From contig NZ_CP034449.1 in assembly GCF_003952425.1 (NCBI RefSeq), positions 620,001 to 684,000 on the forward strand: a stretch of 64,000 nt of DNA, in the 5' to 3' direction. Positions 7,412-59,737 of this stretch are shown here, piece by piece (the first letter of the stretch is position 1; every line of letters starts with the position of its first letter). This DNA comes from Mesorhizobium sp. M2A.F.Ca.ET.046.03.2.1 (GTDB lineage: Bacteria; Pseudomonadota; Alphaproteobacteria; Rhizobiales; Rhizobiaceae). Below the pieces are notes generated by a model. The model saw only the letters and a program-made list of their open reading frames with translations. It was not told the origin of the DNA and made no database searches. A program made the translations under genes and the position numbers.

Positions 7412-8371
7412 ATGACAATCGATAAACTGAAAACCCCCACTGTCGCACTGGGCACCTGGGCCTGGGGTGACAGCGGCGAGATTGGCAACGGCTACTTCGG
7501 CAGCAGCCTCACCCAGGCTACCCTGGAAGAGGTCGCCGACAAGGCACATGCGGCCGGGCTCACCCTGTGGGACACCGCCATTGTGTACGGCATGGGCCGT
7601 TCAGAGACCGTGCTCGGGGAGGTCCTGAAGCGCTACGCCCGCAGCGACTACCAGCTCTCCACGAAGTTCACCCCGCAAGCCGCGGGAACCGGCGACGACC
7701 CGATGGCGGACATGCTGGAACAGAGCCTCGCACGCCTCGGCACCGACTACATCGACCTCTATTGGATTCACAATCCAACCGATGTGGCGCGGTGGACGCC
7801 CCACCTGATCCCGTTGCTGAAGAGCGGGAAAATCAAACATGTCGGCGTCTCGAATCACAACCTGAGTGAAATCGAACTCGCGAACCAGATCCTCGGCGAA
7901 GCCGGGTTCCGGGTCGAGGCCATCCAGAACCACTATAGCCTCCTCTACCGCAGCTCCGAGGAAGCCGGTATCCTGGACTACTGCCACAACCACGGCATCC
8001 AATTCTTCGCCTATATGGTGCTTGAACAGGGCGCCCTGACCGGCAAGTACAGTCCGGAGAACCCGCTACCGGAAGGCACCAATCGGGCGAAGGCTTACAA
8101 TGGCATACTTCCTCAGTTGAAGGCCCTGACGGACAAGCTCGCCTCGATCGGCCAGAAGCAGGGTGCAGCAGCACCCGATGTCGCGACGGCTTGGGCTATC
8201 GCCAAGGGCACGACGCCGCTCGTCGGCGTCACCAAGCCCAACCACATCGATGGTCTGGTCCGAGCCAGCAAGATCACGCTCACCAGCGACAACATCGCGG
8301 AGCTGGAAGCTCTCGCCGGCGCCGCTAACGTGAATACCCGCGGCTGGTGGGAAAAAGAGATGCAGGTTTAA
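7412..8371 (+). CDS. Aldo/keto reductase
   Basis: A 319-residue NADPH-dependent aldo/keto reductase. The catalytic tetrad is visible: Asp54 and Tyr59 in WDTAIVYG, Lys85 in STKFTPQ and His120 in DLYWIHNP. Cofactor-binding segments GVSNHNLSEIE and the late AWAIAKGTTPLVGVTK are also present. The start is the ATG at 7412, preceded by AGGAG; an upstream in-frame extension lacks this signal. It probably reduces an aldehyde or ketone under control of the divergent AraC regulator. The substrate cannot be predicted. Confidence 0.9.
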   Translation: MTIDKLKTPTVALGTWAWGDSGEIGNGYFGSSLTQATLEEVADKAHAAGLTLWDTAIVYGMGRSETVLGEVLKRYARSDYQLSTKFTPQAAGTGDDPMADMLEQSLARLGTDYIDLYWIHNPTDVARWTPHLIPLLKSGKIKHVGVSNHNLSEIELANQILGEAGFRVEAIQNHYSLLYRSSEEAGILDYCHNHGIQFFAYMVLEQGALTGKYSPENPLPEGTNRAKAYNGILPQLKALTDKLASIGQKQGAAAPDVATAWAIAKGTTPLVGVTKPNHIDGLVRASKITLTSDNIAELEALAGAANVNTRGWWEKEMQV

Positions 8372-8810
8372 AGCGCCGCCGTCCTGAAACCTCGGACCGC
8401 AATTCCGAGCAATGTGGCAGGCGATCATCTCCTTCCGTGGGGTGATCGCCTGACCAACCGCCGACCAGCCGATTGGCGGCAACCTTCTGAAATCTCCCGC
8501 CCCAACTTCGGGCCTACCGAATGTCGAAGCGCGCGAGCAAATGGCTGCTGCGATGCCTGTGAACTGCATCGCTAACCCGAGGACATGGCTCGGTCGGCGC
8601 TTTCCTACGGTCTGAAGAAGCGCGCTGGACGACGGGCATCATTCTCTGGTGCGATGGCGGACGAAGCGCCTCTGAGGCAGGGCTCTCGCCACGAGCGGCG
8701 GAGAGAAAAGTGCACGACAAGTGGCCCGGCCGTTACGCCGAAGCCCTGTCCGAGGTTGGTTCAGAGCGAGCTGATCCGGCCTGCAGATGATGGGGGATGG
8801 TGCGGTGTGA
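8372..8810. other. Intergenic stretch without a recognisable gene
   Basis: The stretch lies between the 3' ends of the aldo/keto reductase and the YafY-type regulator, which face each other. It contains a hairpin at 8420-8450. Short open frames on both strands have no recognisable domain and are probably chance frames in GC-rich DNA. Nothing else is supported here. Confidence 0.5.
8420..8450 (+). terminator. Hairpin after the aldo/keto reductase gene
   Basis: GGCGATCA and TGATCGCC form a perfect 8-bp stem that can extend through GC and GU pairs to about 12 bp, closing a short loop. It lies 49 bp past the stop codon. No uridine run follows, so it is either a weak intrinsic terminator or an mRNA-stabilising 3' hairpin. 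Confidence 0.4.
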
Positions 8811-9542
8811 TTACGACGCATCACTCGATCGCGCTCGTCTCGCGGCCGCTCCGGCGTTCAGCTGCTCCTGCAGCTGTTCCAGATATCTCCGCAATAGAAC
8901 GACGCGCCGCGGGCGGAAGCTGCGACCGGTTGATCGGATCTCGATTATCCGGTCGGTCCTGAACATTCGGAAATCGTCGCGCAGGCAGCACCAGGAGAGA
9001 ACGGTGACGCAGTCTTCATTATAGACCAAGGAAAGCGGCAGGATCTCGCGCTCGCTGTCGCGGTCCTGCAAATCGCGGTAGCCGATTTTCACTGCCACCT
9101 CCTGCCAGCAAGCATCGCGTAGAGGTGCAAGATCCATATCGCCCGCATATCGCGGCTCGGGCTGGAAAACGCGCGCGATCGCATGGACAAGTTGCCGCCC
9201 GCGTTCATCCGACAGCGTGGCCGCAACCTTTGTGAGGACAGAAGCGGCCGCCCTCGCCAGCATCGGATCGCCCCAGGAACCAACCTCGGCTAGACCCAGC
9301 GCAAGAGCTTCGATCTCGTCGCGATCTAACGATTGCGGCGGTAGTGACGGATCTTCGATCAGTTTGTAGCCATAGCCGCGCTGCCCTTCGATCCGTGCGC
9401 CCGCCGCACGAAGCGCGTCGATGTCGCGGTAAAGCGCCCGGACGGATATGCCTGTGTCCTCGGCGAGACGCGCCGCGGTGATCGGCGGCGACATCATGCG
9501 GATAAGCTGGAGCAGGCGCAGAAGACGATCAGAGCGCGGCAT
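8811..9542 (-). CDS. YafY-type transcriptional regulator (HTH_11 plus WYL domain)
   Basis: A 243-residue regulator. The N-terminal winged helix reads ITAARLAEDTGISVRALYRD (residues 21-40). A linker leads to a WYL domain (about 130-220) with VVLLRRY near its end. The name-giving WYL motif appears as LSWCCLRDDFRMFRTDRI, a common variant. It diverges from a VOC-superfamily gene across 90 bp, a pairing seen widely in proteobacteria. The likely role is repression of that neighbour. WYL domains sense small ligands or nucleic acids, but the ligand here is unknown. Confidence 0.88.
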   Translation of the reverse strand: MPRSDRLLRLLQLIRMMSPPITAARLAEDTGISVRALYRDIDALRAAGARIEGQRGYGYKLIEDPSLPPQSLDRDEIEALALGLAEVGSWGDPMLARAAASVLTKVAATLSDERGRQLVHAIARVFQPEPRYAGDMDLAPLRDACWQEVAVKIGYRDLQDRDSEREILPLSLVYNEDCVTVLSWCCLRDDFRMFRTDRIIEIRSTGRSFRPRRVVLLRRYLEQLQEQLNAGAAARRARSSDAS

Positions 9543-56121: not shown

Positions 56122-56802
56122 GTGGTGTCGGTAGTGCAGCATTCCCCAGGCGTCCTGACCTCTTCCCTCTTCCTTGGTTTTGCGTTGATCGGCGCGACTT
56201 CGCTACAAGCAGGCCCTGCGGCGGCGCAATCGTCGCTGTTCAAGCTAGCGTCGACACGACCTGCCGCCAGTTCCGCCACTGTCGGCGCAAGCACCAGCGT
56301 TCCTTATGGCTGGCTCGACTTCTGTCATCGTCGGCCGAAAGAATGCAAGGTGCCTGCCCTGCCGGCCGCCAGCGTCAAGCTGACAGCGCGGAACATGAGC
56401 ATCCTCAAGCGGGTGAACCAGAAGGCGAACCGCTCGATCAAGCCCGTCAGCAACTACGATCACTGGGGCACGATGATGGACCACTGGGACTATCCCGTGG
56501 ACGGCAAGGGCGATTGCAAGATTTACGCGCTCTACAAGCGCAAGCTTCTTCAGGAAGCAGGATTTCCCCGGCAGGCATTGCTGATGACGGTGGTTCGCGA
56601 CCTGCACAACGAGGGCCATACCATCCTGACGGTGAAGACCGACAAGGGCGATCTCATCCTTGACAATCTGGTCGACGAGGTCAGGCCCTGGAACGCAACT
56701 GGCTATTATTTCCTGAAACGGCAGTCGCAGCAGAACCCGAACACCTGGGTTTCGATCAACCAGCGTGGCGGCACTGCAAAGCGGCTATCGCCGAGCTCAT
56801 AG
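56122..56802 (+). CDS. Bacterial transglutaminase-like cysteine proteinase (BTLCP)
   Basis: A 226-residue exported protein starting with GTG. A signal peptide (about 1-35; LFLGFALIGATSLQAGPAAA) precedes a BTLCP domain. The catalytic triad is Cys132 (DGKGDCKIYALYKR), His166 (NEGHTILTV) and Asp181 (LILDNLVDEV). Family homologues include the LapG-type periplasmic protease, although this one carries the shorter BTLCP/DUF920 form. It converges on the pseudo-caspase gene at 56933. Confidence 0.88.
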   Translation: MVSVVQHSPGVLTSSLFLGFALIGATSLQAGPAAAQSSLFKLASTRPAASSATVGASTSVPYGWLDFCHRRPKECKVPALPAASVKLTARNMSILKRVNQKANRSIKPVSNYDHWGTMMDHWDYPVDGKGDCKIYALYKRKLLQEAGFPRQALLMTVVRDLHNEGHTILTVKTDKGDLILDNLVDEVRPWNATGYYFLKRQSQQNPNTWVSINQRGGTAKRLSPSS

Positions 56803-56932: not shown

Positions 56933-59569
56933 CTATTGTTTGCAGGGCGGCTCGCCCGGCTTGCCGCAGGCGAATTTCTTGTTGTTACCCTGCGGCGGTT
57001 GTTCCTTGGGCTGTTGTGGCAGACGCCGCGCCTGAGCGTTGGGGTTTTCCTGTAGCTTGAGCTGGCGCTGCACATTCTCGTTCGGTCGGTTGACCTTGAA
57101 GTTGCGCTGGACGTTGACTTCGGGGCCGACGGAACCTTCCTCGTTCTGCGGCCTGCGGAACTTCCTGGCCCGGTCGTTCCCGCCGGCGGAGCCCTGATTC
57201 TCGCCGGAGAAGACATCCGGATTGTTCTTCCTGAGCCGCTTCTGCATACTCGGCCCATTGTCGGCCGGCTCACCATTGACGGTCGGCGGTCTGCGGACCT
57301 TCTTGACGTTCCTGTCGATCGAGCCCTGGTCGGAGAACCCGTCCGGATTGTTCCTCCTCAGGTGCTTCCGCACGCTCGGCCGGTTGTCAGCCGGCTCACC
57401 ATTGACGGTCGGCAGCTTGCCGAATTTTCTGCCTTTGTCGTTTCTGTTGGCCGAGCCCTGATCGCCTGGCTCGACTATGGACCGGCCGGCTGACAAATCC
57501 TTGCGCATCAGCCTTTTCGGTTTGCCGTTGCCCTGGTCGGACAACGCGTTGGGATTGTTCTTCCTTAACTTCTCCCGTGAGTTGAGTCCGTTGTCGGCCG
57601 GTAAGCCGTTGACGGTCGGCAGTTTGCGGAATTTCTTGCCCTTCCGCTGATCCGTGCCCTGCACTCCGGTCGCCGCGGCGCCGGCATTTCCCGTCGCCTC
57701 CTGGTTGCCCTCCACAATGCCTTGCTTGCCAAGCAGCTTCCTCGACCTGTCGTTGAGCAGATTCCGGCCGTTGAGCACCGGCTTGCCGTTGACGAGCGGC
57801 AGCGTTTTGCCATCGGCTCCCGGCAAGGCGTGGTCGGTTCCGAGCTTGCGGGTGGACAGGTTCTTCGACAGCGGACGCGCAGCACCAGGCTGCTGGCCCT
57901 GCGTCACACCCTGACCGGGCTTCAGCGGCAAGGCGCCCTGATTCTGGTTGAACTGGGCCTGACCGGATACGGCCGCCCTCTTCTTCAAGAGCGGCGGCAG
58001 CGCGATCCTGGCCGCCAGCGTCGCGCCGGCACCGATGGCAGCTCCGGTCATTTTCTGGCCGGTGGTGAGGCCGCCCTCTGCATTGCCGTCTGGCTGCCCG
58101 GCCTGATTGGCGGTCTCGTTGCGGATCGTGGTGTTATTGATGTTGTTGATGACGGTCGTGTTGTGGATGTTGTTGAAAATGATGTTGTCCGGCGGCGGCA
58201 CGATGTCACGCGGCGGCCTGACCCAGACCGGCACGGGGACGAAGACCGGCGTCGGCAGGACGTAAACATCGACTGGCGGCGGAGGCGGCGGCAGCACGAC
58301 AAAGTCCGGCGGTGGAGGAGGTAGGAATATCACGTCGACCGGCGGCGGAGGCTCGAAATCGAAATCGGGATCGTCGAAATAGAGCACCGGCCTATCGACA
58401 TAGACGATTTCCTCCTCCGGCGGCGGCGGCACATCGTACACGATGACTGTAAAGCTCGCCGGTGGCTCGAGCTCGGCGTCGAAATGCTCCAGCCGGCGCC
58501 GCGCGTCCCAGGCATGCGGCCCGTGCGGATAGCGTTCGAGATAGGACCAGTAGGCCTCAGGCGTGTCCCGCAGCCATGTTTCACGCCAGGTGATCGCCTC
58601 GCGCCGCGCCGCGATGATGGCGCGCACGCGTTTGGCCATTGGGTCGTGCGGATAGGCGACGATGAAATCCTCGTAGCCGCGCATCGTGTCGCGATCGAGT
58701 GCCGCGAGATAGGCGTCGTGCGCATTGAAGTCGCGGATCGCCCTGGTCCGGTTAGTCCGTTCTTCGGCCTCGGAAACCTTCGGCGGCGGCGCGTCCGGAG
58801 CGCGCTCGAAGAAGACGAAAGGCACGTCGATCTTCGAGACATCCCATGGGATTTCGGCGCCCTGCGTCACCTCGTTGACGCGCAGCCGCGTGCGGTCGAA
58901 AACCTCATCGAGCGACAAGCCGCCGTCGCGCATCATCTCGGCGAGCGCCTGGGCATAGGCGCCGTATGGGCCCTCACCTTCCGGCGCAACCGTTCCGGGA
59001 GCGGCGTTGAACGCGATCAGCATATTGGGCTCGGGGTCGACCAGCGCCAGCCCGCTGGCCAGCGGCTGGCTCATTTTTGGGAGGGCATTCGGCCGGGCCG
59101 CGTCGAGGACGACTATATTAACCTTCGTCGGCAGTCCGGCCAGCGACTTGGTGATATCGGAGAGCCGCATGGCCTGGAGCGGCACGTCGGCCGGATTGGC
59201 GATCTGGGCATCGACCGGCAAGAAGTAGTTCTCGCCTTCGAACTGCACGCCACGGCCGGCGAGGTACACGAAAACGGTAGCGTCCGGACCGGCGGCGGAA
59301 ACTTTCGCAAGGAAATCACGCAGCGCGCCACGCAGCGATTCCTGGTCGACATCGCGCGCGCCGACCACATCGAACCCGGCTGCTTGCAGGGTCTGCGCGA
59401 TCAGACCGGCGTCGTTCGCGGAGGTGACCAACGCATCGGACGGATAGGCGGCGTTGCCGATGACGAAAGCGAGACGTTTCTGCTGTTGCGCGAGCACATC
59501 GGTCGCGGAGGCGACGGTGAACGCGATGAGAAGAACGAGAAGACCGATGACTTTCCGAAGCGAGAGCAT
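56933..59569 (-). CDS. Exported caspase-fold protein with degenerate catalytic residues
   Basis: An 878-residue protein. A signal peptide (1-28; LLVLLIAFTVASATDVLAQ) is followed by a caspase (C14-type) fold at 31-255. The catalytic His position reads AGRG (Arg106) where active members have SGHG, and the catalytic Cys position reads LDAARP (Ala158) where active members have DACR. The protein is probably proteolytically inactive. After a helical part (260-365) comes a proline-rich stretch (380-460; PPPPP blocks), an Asn-rich stretch, a Gly-rich hydrophobic segment (AAIGAGATLAARIALPP) and a basic repeat tail. The start ATG at 59569 has AAGGATGG upstream; 59599 is an alternative. Confidence 0.85.
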   Translation of the reverse strand: MLSLRKVIGLLVLLIAFTVASATDVLAQQQKRLAFVIGNAAYPSDALVTSANDAGLIAQTLQAAGFDVVGARDVDQESLRGALRDFLAKVSAAGPDATVFVYLAGRGVQFEGENYFLPVDAQIANPADVPLQAMRLSDITKSLAGLPTKVNIVVLDAARPNALPKMSQPLASGLALVDPEPNMLIAFNAAPGTVAPEGEGPYGAYAQALAEMMRDGGLSLDEVFDRTRLRVNEVTQGAEIPWDVSKIDVPFVFFERAPDAPPPKVSEAEERTNRTRAIRDFNAHDAYLAALDRDTMRGYEDFIVAYPHDPMAKRVRAIIAARREAITWRETWLRDTPEAYWSYLERYPHGPHAWDARRRLEHFDAELEPPASFTVIVYDVPPPPEEEIVYVDRPVLYFDDPDFDFEPPPPVDVIFLPPPPPDFVVLPPPPPPVDVYVLPTPVFVPVPVWVRPPRDIVPPPDNIIFNNIHNTTVINNINNTTIRNETANQAGQPDGNAEGGLTTGQKMTGAAIGAGATLAARIALPPLLKKRAAVSGQAQFNQNQGALPLKPGQGVTQGQQPGAARPLSKNLSTRKLGTDHALPGADGKTLPLVNGKPVLNGRNLLNDRSRKLLGKQGIVEGNQEATGNAGAAATGVQGTDQRKGKKFRKLPTVNGLPADNGLNSREKLRKNNPNALSDQGNGKPKRLMRKDLSAGRSIVEPGDQGSANRNDKGRKFGKLPTVNGEPADNRPSVRKHLRRNNPDGFSDQGSIDRNVKKVRRPPTVNGEPADNGPSMQKRLRKNNPDVFSGENQGSAGGNDRARKFRRPQNEEGSVGPEVNVQRNFKVNRPNENVQRQLKLQENPNAQARRLPQQPKEQPPQGNNKKFACGKPGEPPCKQ
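57258..57622. repeat. Tandem repeats within the tail of the pseudo-caspase gene
   Basis: Three near-identical blocks of about 31 bases start at 57258, 57384 and 57591, each encoding TVNGEPADN or TVNGLPADN in the minus-strand protein. The protein repeat unit is about 40 residues: KLPTVNGxPADN, then RKxLRxNNPD, then SDQG. Spacing varies, so the repeat unit has diverged between copies. A weaker partial copy precedes it in the protein (TLPLVNGKPV). Confidence 0.75.
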
Positions 59570-59737
59570 AGCAATTCGCCATCCTTGTTCGCCATCCATC
59601 CCACGCGATAACGCCGGGGAGGCAGGAATGTTTCCCTAACAGCGAAATTAAGGTCCGGCAAAAAGGCGGCTTTAGGGCGCGATTTCACCGAAAGAACAGA
59701 GACTTCACAATTTTTCCAGCGAACCTCCGGCAGTCGA

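Follow-up and report, generated by a model that had tools for sequence, protein, structure and literature searches.

What purpose does a caspase-fold protein serve once the residues that should make it a protease are gone? The question is raised by a gene of Mesorhizobium sp. M2A.F.Ca.ET.046.03.2.1, found in a stretch of 64,000 nucleotides (the window) that is part of a single 7.37-Mb contig. An earlier note, made from the sequence alone, had described its product as an exported pseudo-caspase and had read the loss of both catalytic residues as the result of selection for binding over cleavage. Comparison of the gene with its relatives supports the main part of this description and leads to a different history for the two catalytic positions.

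Results

The reading frame is intact and lies on the minus strand at positions 56933 to 59569, the former being the final base of its TAG stop codon. The start codon is likely the ATG at 59569, which yields 878 residues; an in-frame ATG upstream, at 59599, would yield an 888-residue form. Two residue numberings are therefore used here, Arg116 and Ala168 of the longer form being Arg106 and Ala158 of the shorter one. The 878-residue form begins with a signal-peptide-like sequence, MLSLRKVIGLLVLLIAFTVASATDVLA, and the presumed Sec-type signal peptide (59489 to 59569, minus strand; residues 1-27 of 878) is the most hydrophobic segment of the protein. It is followed by the caspase domain, a helical module, a proline-rich linker, an Asn/Thr-rich stretch, a Gly/Ala-rich hydrophobic segment, a basic repeat tail and a terminal CGKPGEPPC. 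The closest named relatives are Mesorhizobium records, with at most 98% identity across the domain. In a hydropathy test, which is not a signal-peptide predictor, a hydrophobic core precedes the caspase domain in all 70 Mesorhizobium rows of the alignment, bearing out the export-type N-terminus, which is also present in 71 of 72 other rows of the Cys-less (pseudo) branch defined below, two more being too short.

The caspase-fold (p20-like) domain (58829 to 59479, minus strand; residues 41-257 of the 888-residue form) matches Pfam Peptidase_C14 (PF00656) at 123.2 bits against a cut-off of 21.4. This is the sole domain that Pfam reports for the protein, with no further match after residue 257 at E values up to 1, and the score against the EACC1-associated caspase model (NF047832), 30 bits, is below the NCBI cut-off of 140 bits. 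The caspase fold assigned by the earlier note is also predicted with confidence in three dimensions by AlphaFold2, in a model built from 38 rows that include 19 diverse caspase domains from viral contigs; an earlier model, built from 24 close relatives, was poor (pLDDT 56.7) and was set aside. Viral contigs scanned with the pseudo branch's own profile yielded no relative.

Within this domain, AGRG occupies residues 114-117 and DAAR residues 166-169 (888 numbering), which places Arg116 (CGT; 59252 to 59254, minus strand) at the position of the catalytic His and Ala168 (GCC; 59096 to 59098, minus strand) at that of the catalytic Cys. Sequence alignment with MALT1, in which AGRG falls on AGHG and LDAAR on LDMCR, and a profile alignment both confirm the replacements originally described. 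The catalytic His-Cys dyad of active orthocaspases is thus absent. The earlier note had also raised the possibilities that another Cys serves in the active site or that the sequence is in error, and both are ruled out. The only two cysteines of the protein are residues 868 and 876 of 878, so that none from residue 1 to 867, and hence none in the domain, can replace the nucleophile, while Arg recurs in 11 and Ala in all of the 70 distinct Mesorhizobium rows.

The history of the two positions was read from a tree of 168 distinct domains, built by a quick method with the two dyad columns left out and rooted on a His-Cys row. It splits 24 His-Cys rows from 144 Cys-less rows with an SH-aLRT value of 99, although 65 of its 165 inner branches fall below 80, single counts could change, and the tree carries a warning of meeting long branches (L057 and one more with L211). 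The 168 rows were kept from 216 aligned after removal of identical domains, a truncated one (L058), one row gapped at the dyad, and L177 and L178, which are both Tyr-Ser and therefore also Cys-less. The 24 distinct His-Cys domains stand for 28 rows, all of which keep both dyad residues. Among the 144 pseudo rows, the Cys position holds Ala in 134, Ser in 5 and Gly in 5, and the His position holds Tyr (62), His (36), Gln (21), Arg (11), Leu (7), Glu (4) and one each of Ile, Val and Asn. The 70 rows of the Mesorhizobium branch show the same freedom at the latter (His 32, Gln 21, Arg 11, Tyr 3, Glu 2, Asn 1). Parsimony counts 13 changes there, where the average site has 2.4, which ranks it joint third of 239 sites, two having changed more and two equally often. 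Position 168 underwent no change within Mesorhizobium, but neither did 100 other sites of the 239, so that its constancy does not by itself show that Ala is selected.

In the parsimony reconstruction, the His position held Tyr in the ancestor common to Mesorhizobium, Bradyrhizobium and Rhizobium and Gln in the ancestor of Mesorhizobium, His and Arg arising later; judged from these reconstructed states, the numerous Mesorhizobium His residues and the Arg of the present protein look secondary. The Mesorhizobium codons at this position (CAT, CAC, CAG, CAA, CGC, CGT, CGG and four single ones) are linked through changes of one base at a time. The state at the root of the entire pseudo branch is ambiguous, and it becomes His once the outgroup is included, which suggests that the Cys may have been lost before the His position changed. 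The tree and the parsimony reconstruction lead us to reject a joint loss of His and Cys, as the earlier note had it: the Cys is missing branch-wide, and the His position changed by way of Tyr and Gln to later His and Arg. Nor can selection of both replacements be upheld, and of the two residues whose conservation was to be checked, only the Ala is conserved in Mesorhizobium, the Arg being one of several residues found at its position.

Other parts of the former active site have been retained. Asp63 of the NDA motif (59411 to 59413, minus strand), an acidic residue of the presumed specificity pocket, is present in 140 of the 144 pseudo rows, and Asp166 (59102 to 59104, minus strand), two residues before the former Cys, in all 144; both occur in 28 of 28 His-Cys rows. 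By position Asp166 matches the specificity-pocket Asp two residues before the Cys, which would be Asp211 of TbMC2, and Asp63 may correspond to Asp95, the other Asp of the TbMC2 pocket. Two specificity-pocket Asp residues are kept in pseudo-orthocaspases according to Klemencic et al. (2019; PMC6426788). A second feature marks the branch itself: Tyr212-Gly213 (58961 to 58966, minus strand) is found as Tyr in 142 and Gly in 137 of the 144 pseudo rows, whereas His-Cys rows have mostly Asn (17/28) and then invariably Ser (28/28). The segment YGAYAQALAE, which includes this pair and had been listed as a landmark of the active family, is thus rather a departure from it. The SGHG that had been taken as the catalytic motif of active members does occur in 7 of the 28 His-Cys rows, but AGHG is commoner (21/28).

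Selection was estimated as the median dN/dS of as many as 200 randomly chosen pairs from 52 sequences (51 of the 53 named Mesorhizobium-branch loci plus the window). The caspase domain has the lowest value of seven segments, 0.11 (200 pairs), followed by the helical module (0.14), the proline-rich linker (0.20), the hydrophobic segment (0.27) and the Asn/Thr-rich stretch (0.43); the signal peptide and the tail both stand at 0.41, the latter on 191 usable pairs and with the highest median dN (0.35). The low value for the domain implies that selection maintains a role of the head distinct from Cys-dependent cleavage, even though one of the old catalytic positions is not under selection, and it agrees with the earlier view of a caspase-fold pseudoprotease kept for a role beyond such cleavage.

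Behind the head, the helical module (58550 to 58813, minus strand; residues 253-340 of 878) has no Pfam match but is predicted by AlphaFold2 to form helices, with pLDDT blocks of 71-92. The proline-rich linker (58184 to 58549, minus strand; residues 341-462 of 878) has 34 Pro in 122 residues and is recognisable in Rhizobium, Bradyrhizobium, Afipia and a Xanthobacteraceae MAG (L131, L135, L149 and L143); a counterpart resembling the Asn/Thr-rich segment with NNIHNTTVINN (58055 to 58183, minus strand) occurs in these four and in L077, L089 and L110. The Gly/Ala-rich segment (57950 to 58054, minus strand; residues 506-540 of 878) contains the most hydrophobic 19-mer past residue 260. It leads into the fast-evolving tail of (L/P)PxVNG repeat units (56969 to 57949, minus strand), whose copy number ranges from 0 to 4 across 52 Mesorhizobium proteins. 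With a net charge of +34 over the 338 residues 541-878 of 878, the basic repeat tail noted before is confirmed, as is the proline-rich spacer, but the tail is basic in Mesorhizobium and Pro/Ala-rich in the other genera compared, so that a role based on charge cannot be general.

This segment of highest median dN is closed by a near-invariant loop, CGKPGEPPC (56942 to 56968, minus strand), which contains the only two cysteines of the protein and presumably forms a disulphide. Its C, G, E, P and C are invariant in 51 of 51 Mesorhizobium tails, the 52nd protein being truncated at 476 residues. A Cx(4-10)C end is found in all 63 Mesorhizobium rows with a complete and sufficiently long C-terminus; elsewhere in the branch it is limited to 36 of 49 rows. 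Past the start of the domain, exactly two Cys are present in 62 of these 63 and only 31 of these 49. These counts omit rows shorter than 500 residues or lacking a usable end (7 of 70 Mesorhizobium rows and 25 of 74 others).

Near-full-length orthologues are present in at least 45 of 89 genomes of the genus by a hand count among the matches listed by E-value; among the same matches, three of these genomes hold two copies, and one further genome has a remnant. Of 12 Mesorhizobium genomes that lack a full copy, two have remnants and ten keep the flanking genes with no match in between, which indicates that the gene is dispensable. Long intact frames are nevertheless found in most of 80 named loci. 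In one locus (L282, genome G086, 2202-2675) a remnant of at most about 160 residues from the start of the caspase domain adjoins the C93 peptidase gene. In another (L283, genome G015) the caspase domain is gone and the tail remains, with a RES/Xre-MbcA toxin-antitoxin-like gene pair beside it (8107-8748 and 8606-8977, minus strand). Genome G376 (L228) carries two adjacent pseudo-caspase domains of the branch.

The flanks are mostly fixed within Mesorhizobium, where a methyltransferase gene lies upstream in 48 of 53 named loci (hand count), but other genera have other flanks and no neighbour is common to all genera examined. The C93 (BTLCP) cysteine peptidase gene (56122-56802, plus strand), convergent with the pseudo-caspase gene, is at the expected place in 41 of the 53 Mesorhizobium-branch loci by hand count, the contig ending in some of the other 12. 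As a conserved operon partner it was rejected, since it was found in none of 20 long-flank loci of other genera, and a DUF1800-DUF1501 pair was rejected on the same count. That pair lies downstream in six of eight Bradyrhizobium loci with enough sequence, with DUF1800 fragments in one more, and in Phyllobacterium sp. 628 (L152), whose pseudo-caspase frame ends early; the loci concerned are L130, L137, L139, L145, L147, L151 and L152. It is known from chitin-synthase gene clusters of some bacteria (PMC5122149). The DUF1800 gene of the present genome, outside the window (G000:C1:2240117-2241519), gives its match in two reading frames, as if frameshifted. Near the locus lie genes of the IalB (PF06776; 53151-53711) and YbjN (PF10722; 53784-54254) families, both on the plus strand.

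Relatives on plasmids of Methylocapsa, Rhizobium and Chelatococcus (L294, L295 and L296) have the Cys-less domain and the terminal Cys pair; all three are annotated as "caspase family protein", and two are also assigned the GO term proteolysis. An anti-phage role was discarded, no PADLOC family being matched at E 0.01. A tie to phototrophy, suggested for pseudo-orthocaspases by Klemencic et al. (PMC6426788) though not as a defining trait, is not supported for this branch: of 44 genomes with the branch, 7 carry reaction-centre genes, as do 68 of the 353 that lack it (Fisher p 0.69), in an order-level tally that defines membership by E at most 1e-80 and in which dyads were read for a subset of loci rather than for all 44 genomes. 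Among 55 Mesorhizobium genomes, the present one included, such genes occur in one (G009), which carries the pseudo-caspase.

Discussion

The protein is an exported-type, non-catalytic pseudo-orthocaspase, of a kind already reported. We propose that it has a binding head that does not cleave and serves as an adaptor or scaffold of the cell envelope through an anchored tail, a reading to which we give an even chance and which draws on the fold, the missing nucleophile, purifying selection, the acidic pair, the export-type N-terminus, the linker and the terminal Cys pair. The domain would bind a ligand without cutting it, the simplest candidate being a basic peptide side chain, held in the retained acidic pocket whose shape the Tyr-Gly pair of the branch would have altered. 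The helical module, proline-rich linker, hydrophobic segment and tail would hold this head away from an anchoring point in the envelope, the end of the tail being closed by the presumed disulphide loop. A bolder form of the proposal, which we regard as rather doubtful, is that an exported protease has turned into a peptide receptor, with a pocket that reads basic peptides and a near-invariant Cys loop that acts as a new sorting or anchoring element, fixing the far end of a long proline-stiffened rod.

Several other explanations draw on the same observations. That the protein is a decoy or regulator of active orthocaspases, tuning their activity by binding their substrates or pairing with them, is unlikely on present analysis, although several observations favour it: the genome encodes four further PF00656 proteins, each of which has the His-Cys dyad, 23 of 24 His-Cys rows show an N-terminal hydrophobic core too, the acidic pair is kept, and dead mammalian homologues can regulate caspases (PMC3501461). 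The active-type copies of the genome lie more than 1 Mb away, however, and none of the 80 named loci, searched together with as much as 6 kb of flanking sequence, holds a second caspase domain (E 1e-15, frames of at least 150 residues). The freely varying His position, the near-invariant loop at the end of the highest-dN segment and the linker recognisable across genera would also suit a purely structural envelope protein, whose head, with a vestigial pocket, serves for dimerisation or bulk only and whose conserved linker and Cys loop do the work. A head with the lowest dN/dS of the seven segments, and with Asp63 and Asp166 intact, speaks against such a vestige, and we consider it improbable.

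Outright decay of an active protease is very unlikely. The active site drifts and 12 Mesorhizobium genomes lack a full copy, as expected of a relic, but the intact frames and low dN/dS are at odds with it, and the Cys-less branch spans many genera, beyond the survival of pseudogenes. Least credible of all is that the pocket houses a different hydrolytic chemistry, based for example on Tyr212 or water; Tyr212 is almost fixed in the pseudo branch, whereas Arg, Gln, Glu, Leu, Val and others are found at the former His site, a range incompatible with acid-base chemistry there.

The branch shows across many species that the catalytic positions of a pseudoprotease need not go or stay as a pair. The Cys site stays closed and the His site wanders, even back to His, so that a surviving His says little about activity. 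Literature searches, supplementary files aside, found no functional study of this rhizobial branch; the retained acidic pair, the Tyr-Gly signature and the Cys loop at the C-terminus provide three testable handles on it, and the conserved loop is a new lead on the role of the protein.

Among the closest known systems are active-type alphaproteobacterial orthocaspases such as the four paralogues in the same genome, which share the fold and motif order of this protein but keep His and Cys; the one at C1:1751232 is 37% identical over residues 22-274. MALT1 paracaspase is an active protease flanked by other domains. An intact dyad is the rule among homologues, being present in 84% of bacterial and 75% of alphaproteobacterial ones according to Asplund-Samuelsson et al. 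(2012; PMC3501461). Of 582 alphaproteobacterial pseudo-orthocaspases reported by Klemencic et al. (PMC6426788), 561 come from Rhizobiales; common dyads are YS, YA, FS, QC and HA, and the YS and YA forms mostly have long C-termini with no identifiable domains. The present protein likewise combines a substituted p20 dyad with a long, domain-less C-terminus. Its branch is mainly Tyr-Ala, His-Ala and Gln-Ala, and Arg-Ala and Gln-Ala lie outside the dyads named there as common; the drift at the His position, the Tyr-Gly signature and the C-terminal Cys loop go beyond the description in that paper, its supplements aside. SyOC of Synechocystis (PMC7889975) is an inactive orthocaspase as well, albeit a cyanobacterial one likened here by description alone, and its deletion leads to higher tolerance of oxidative stress.
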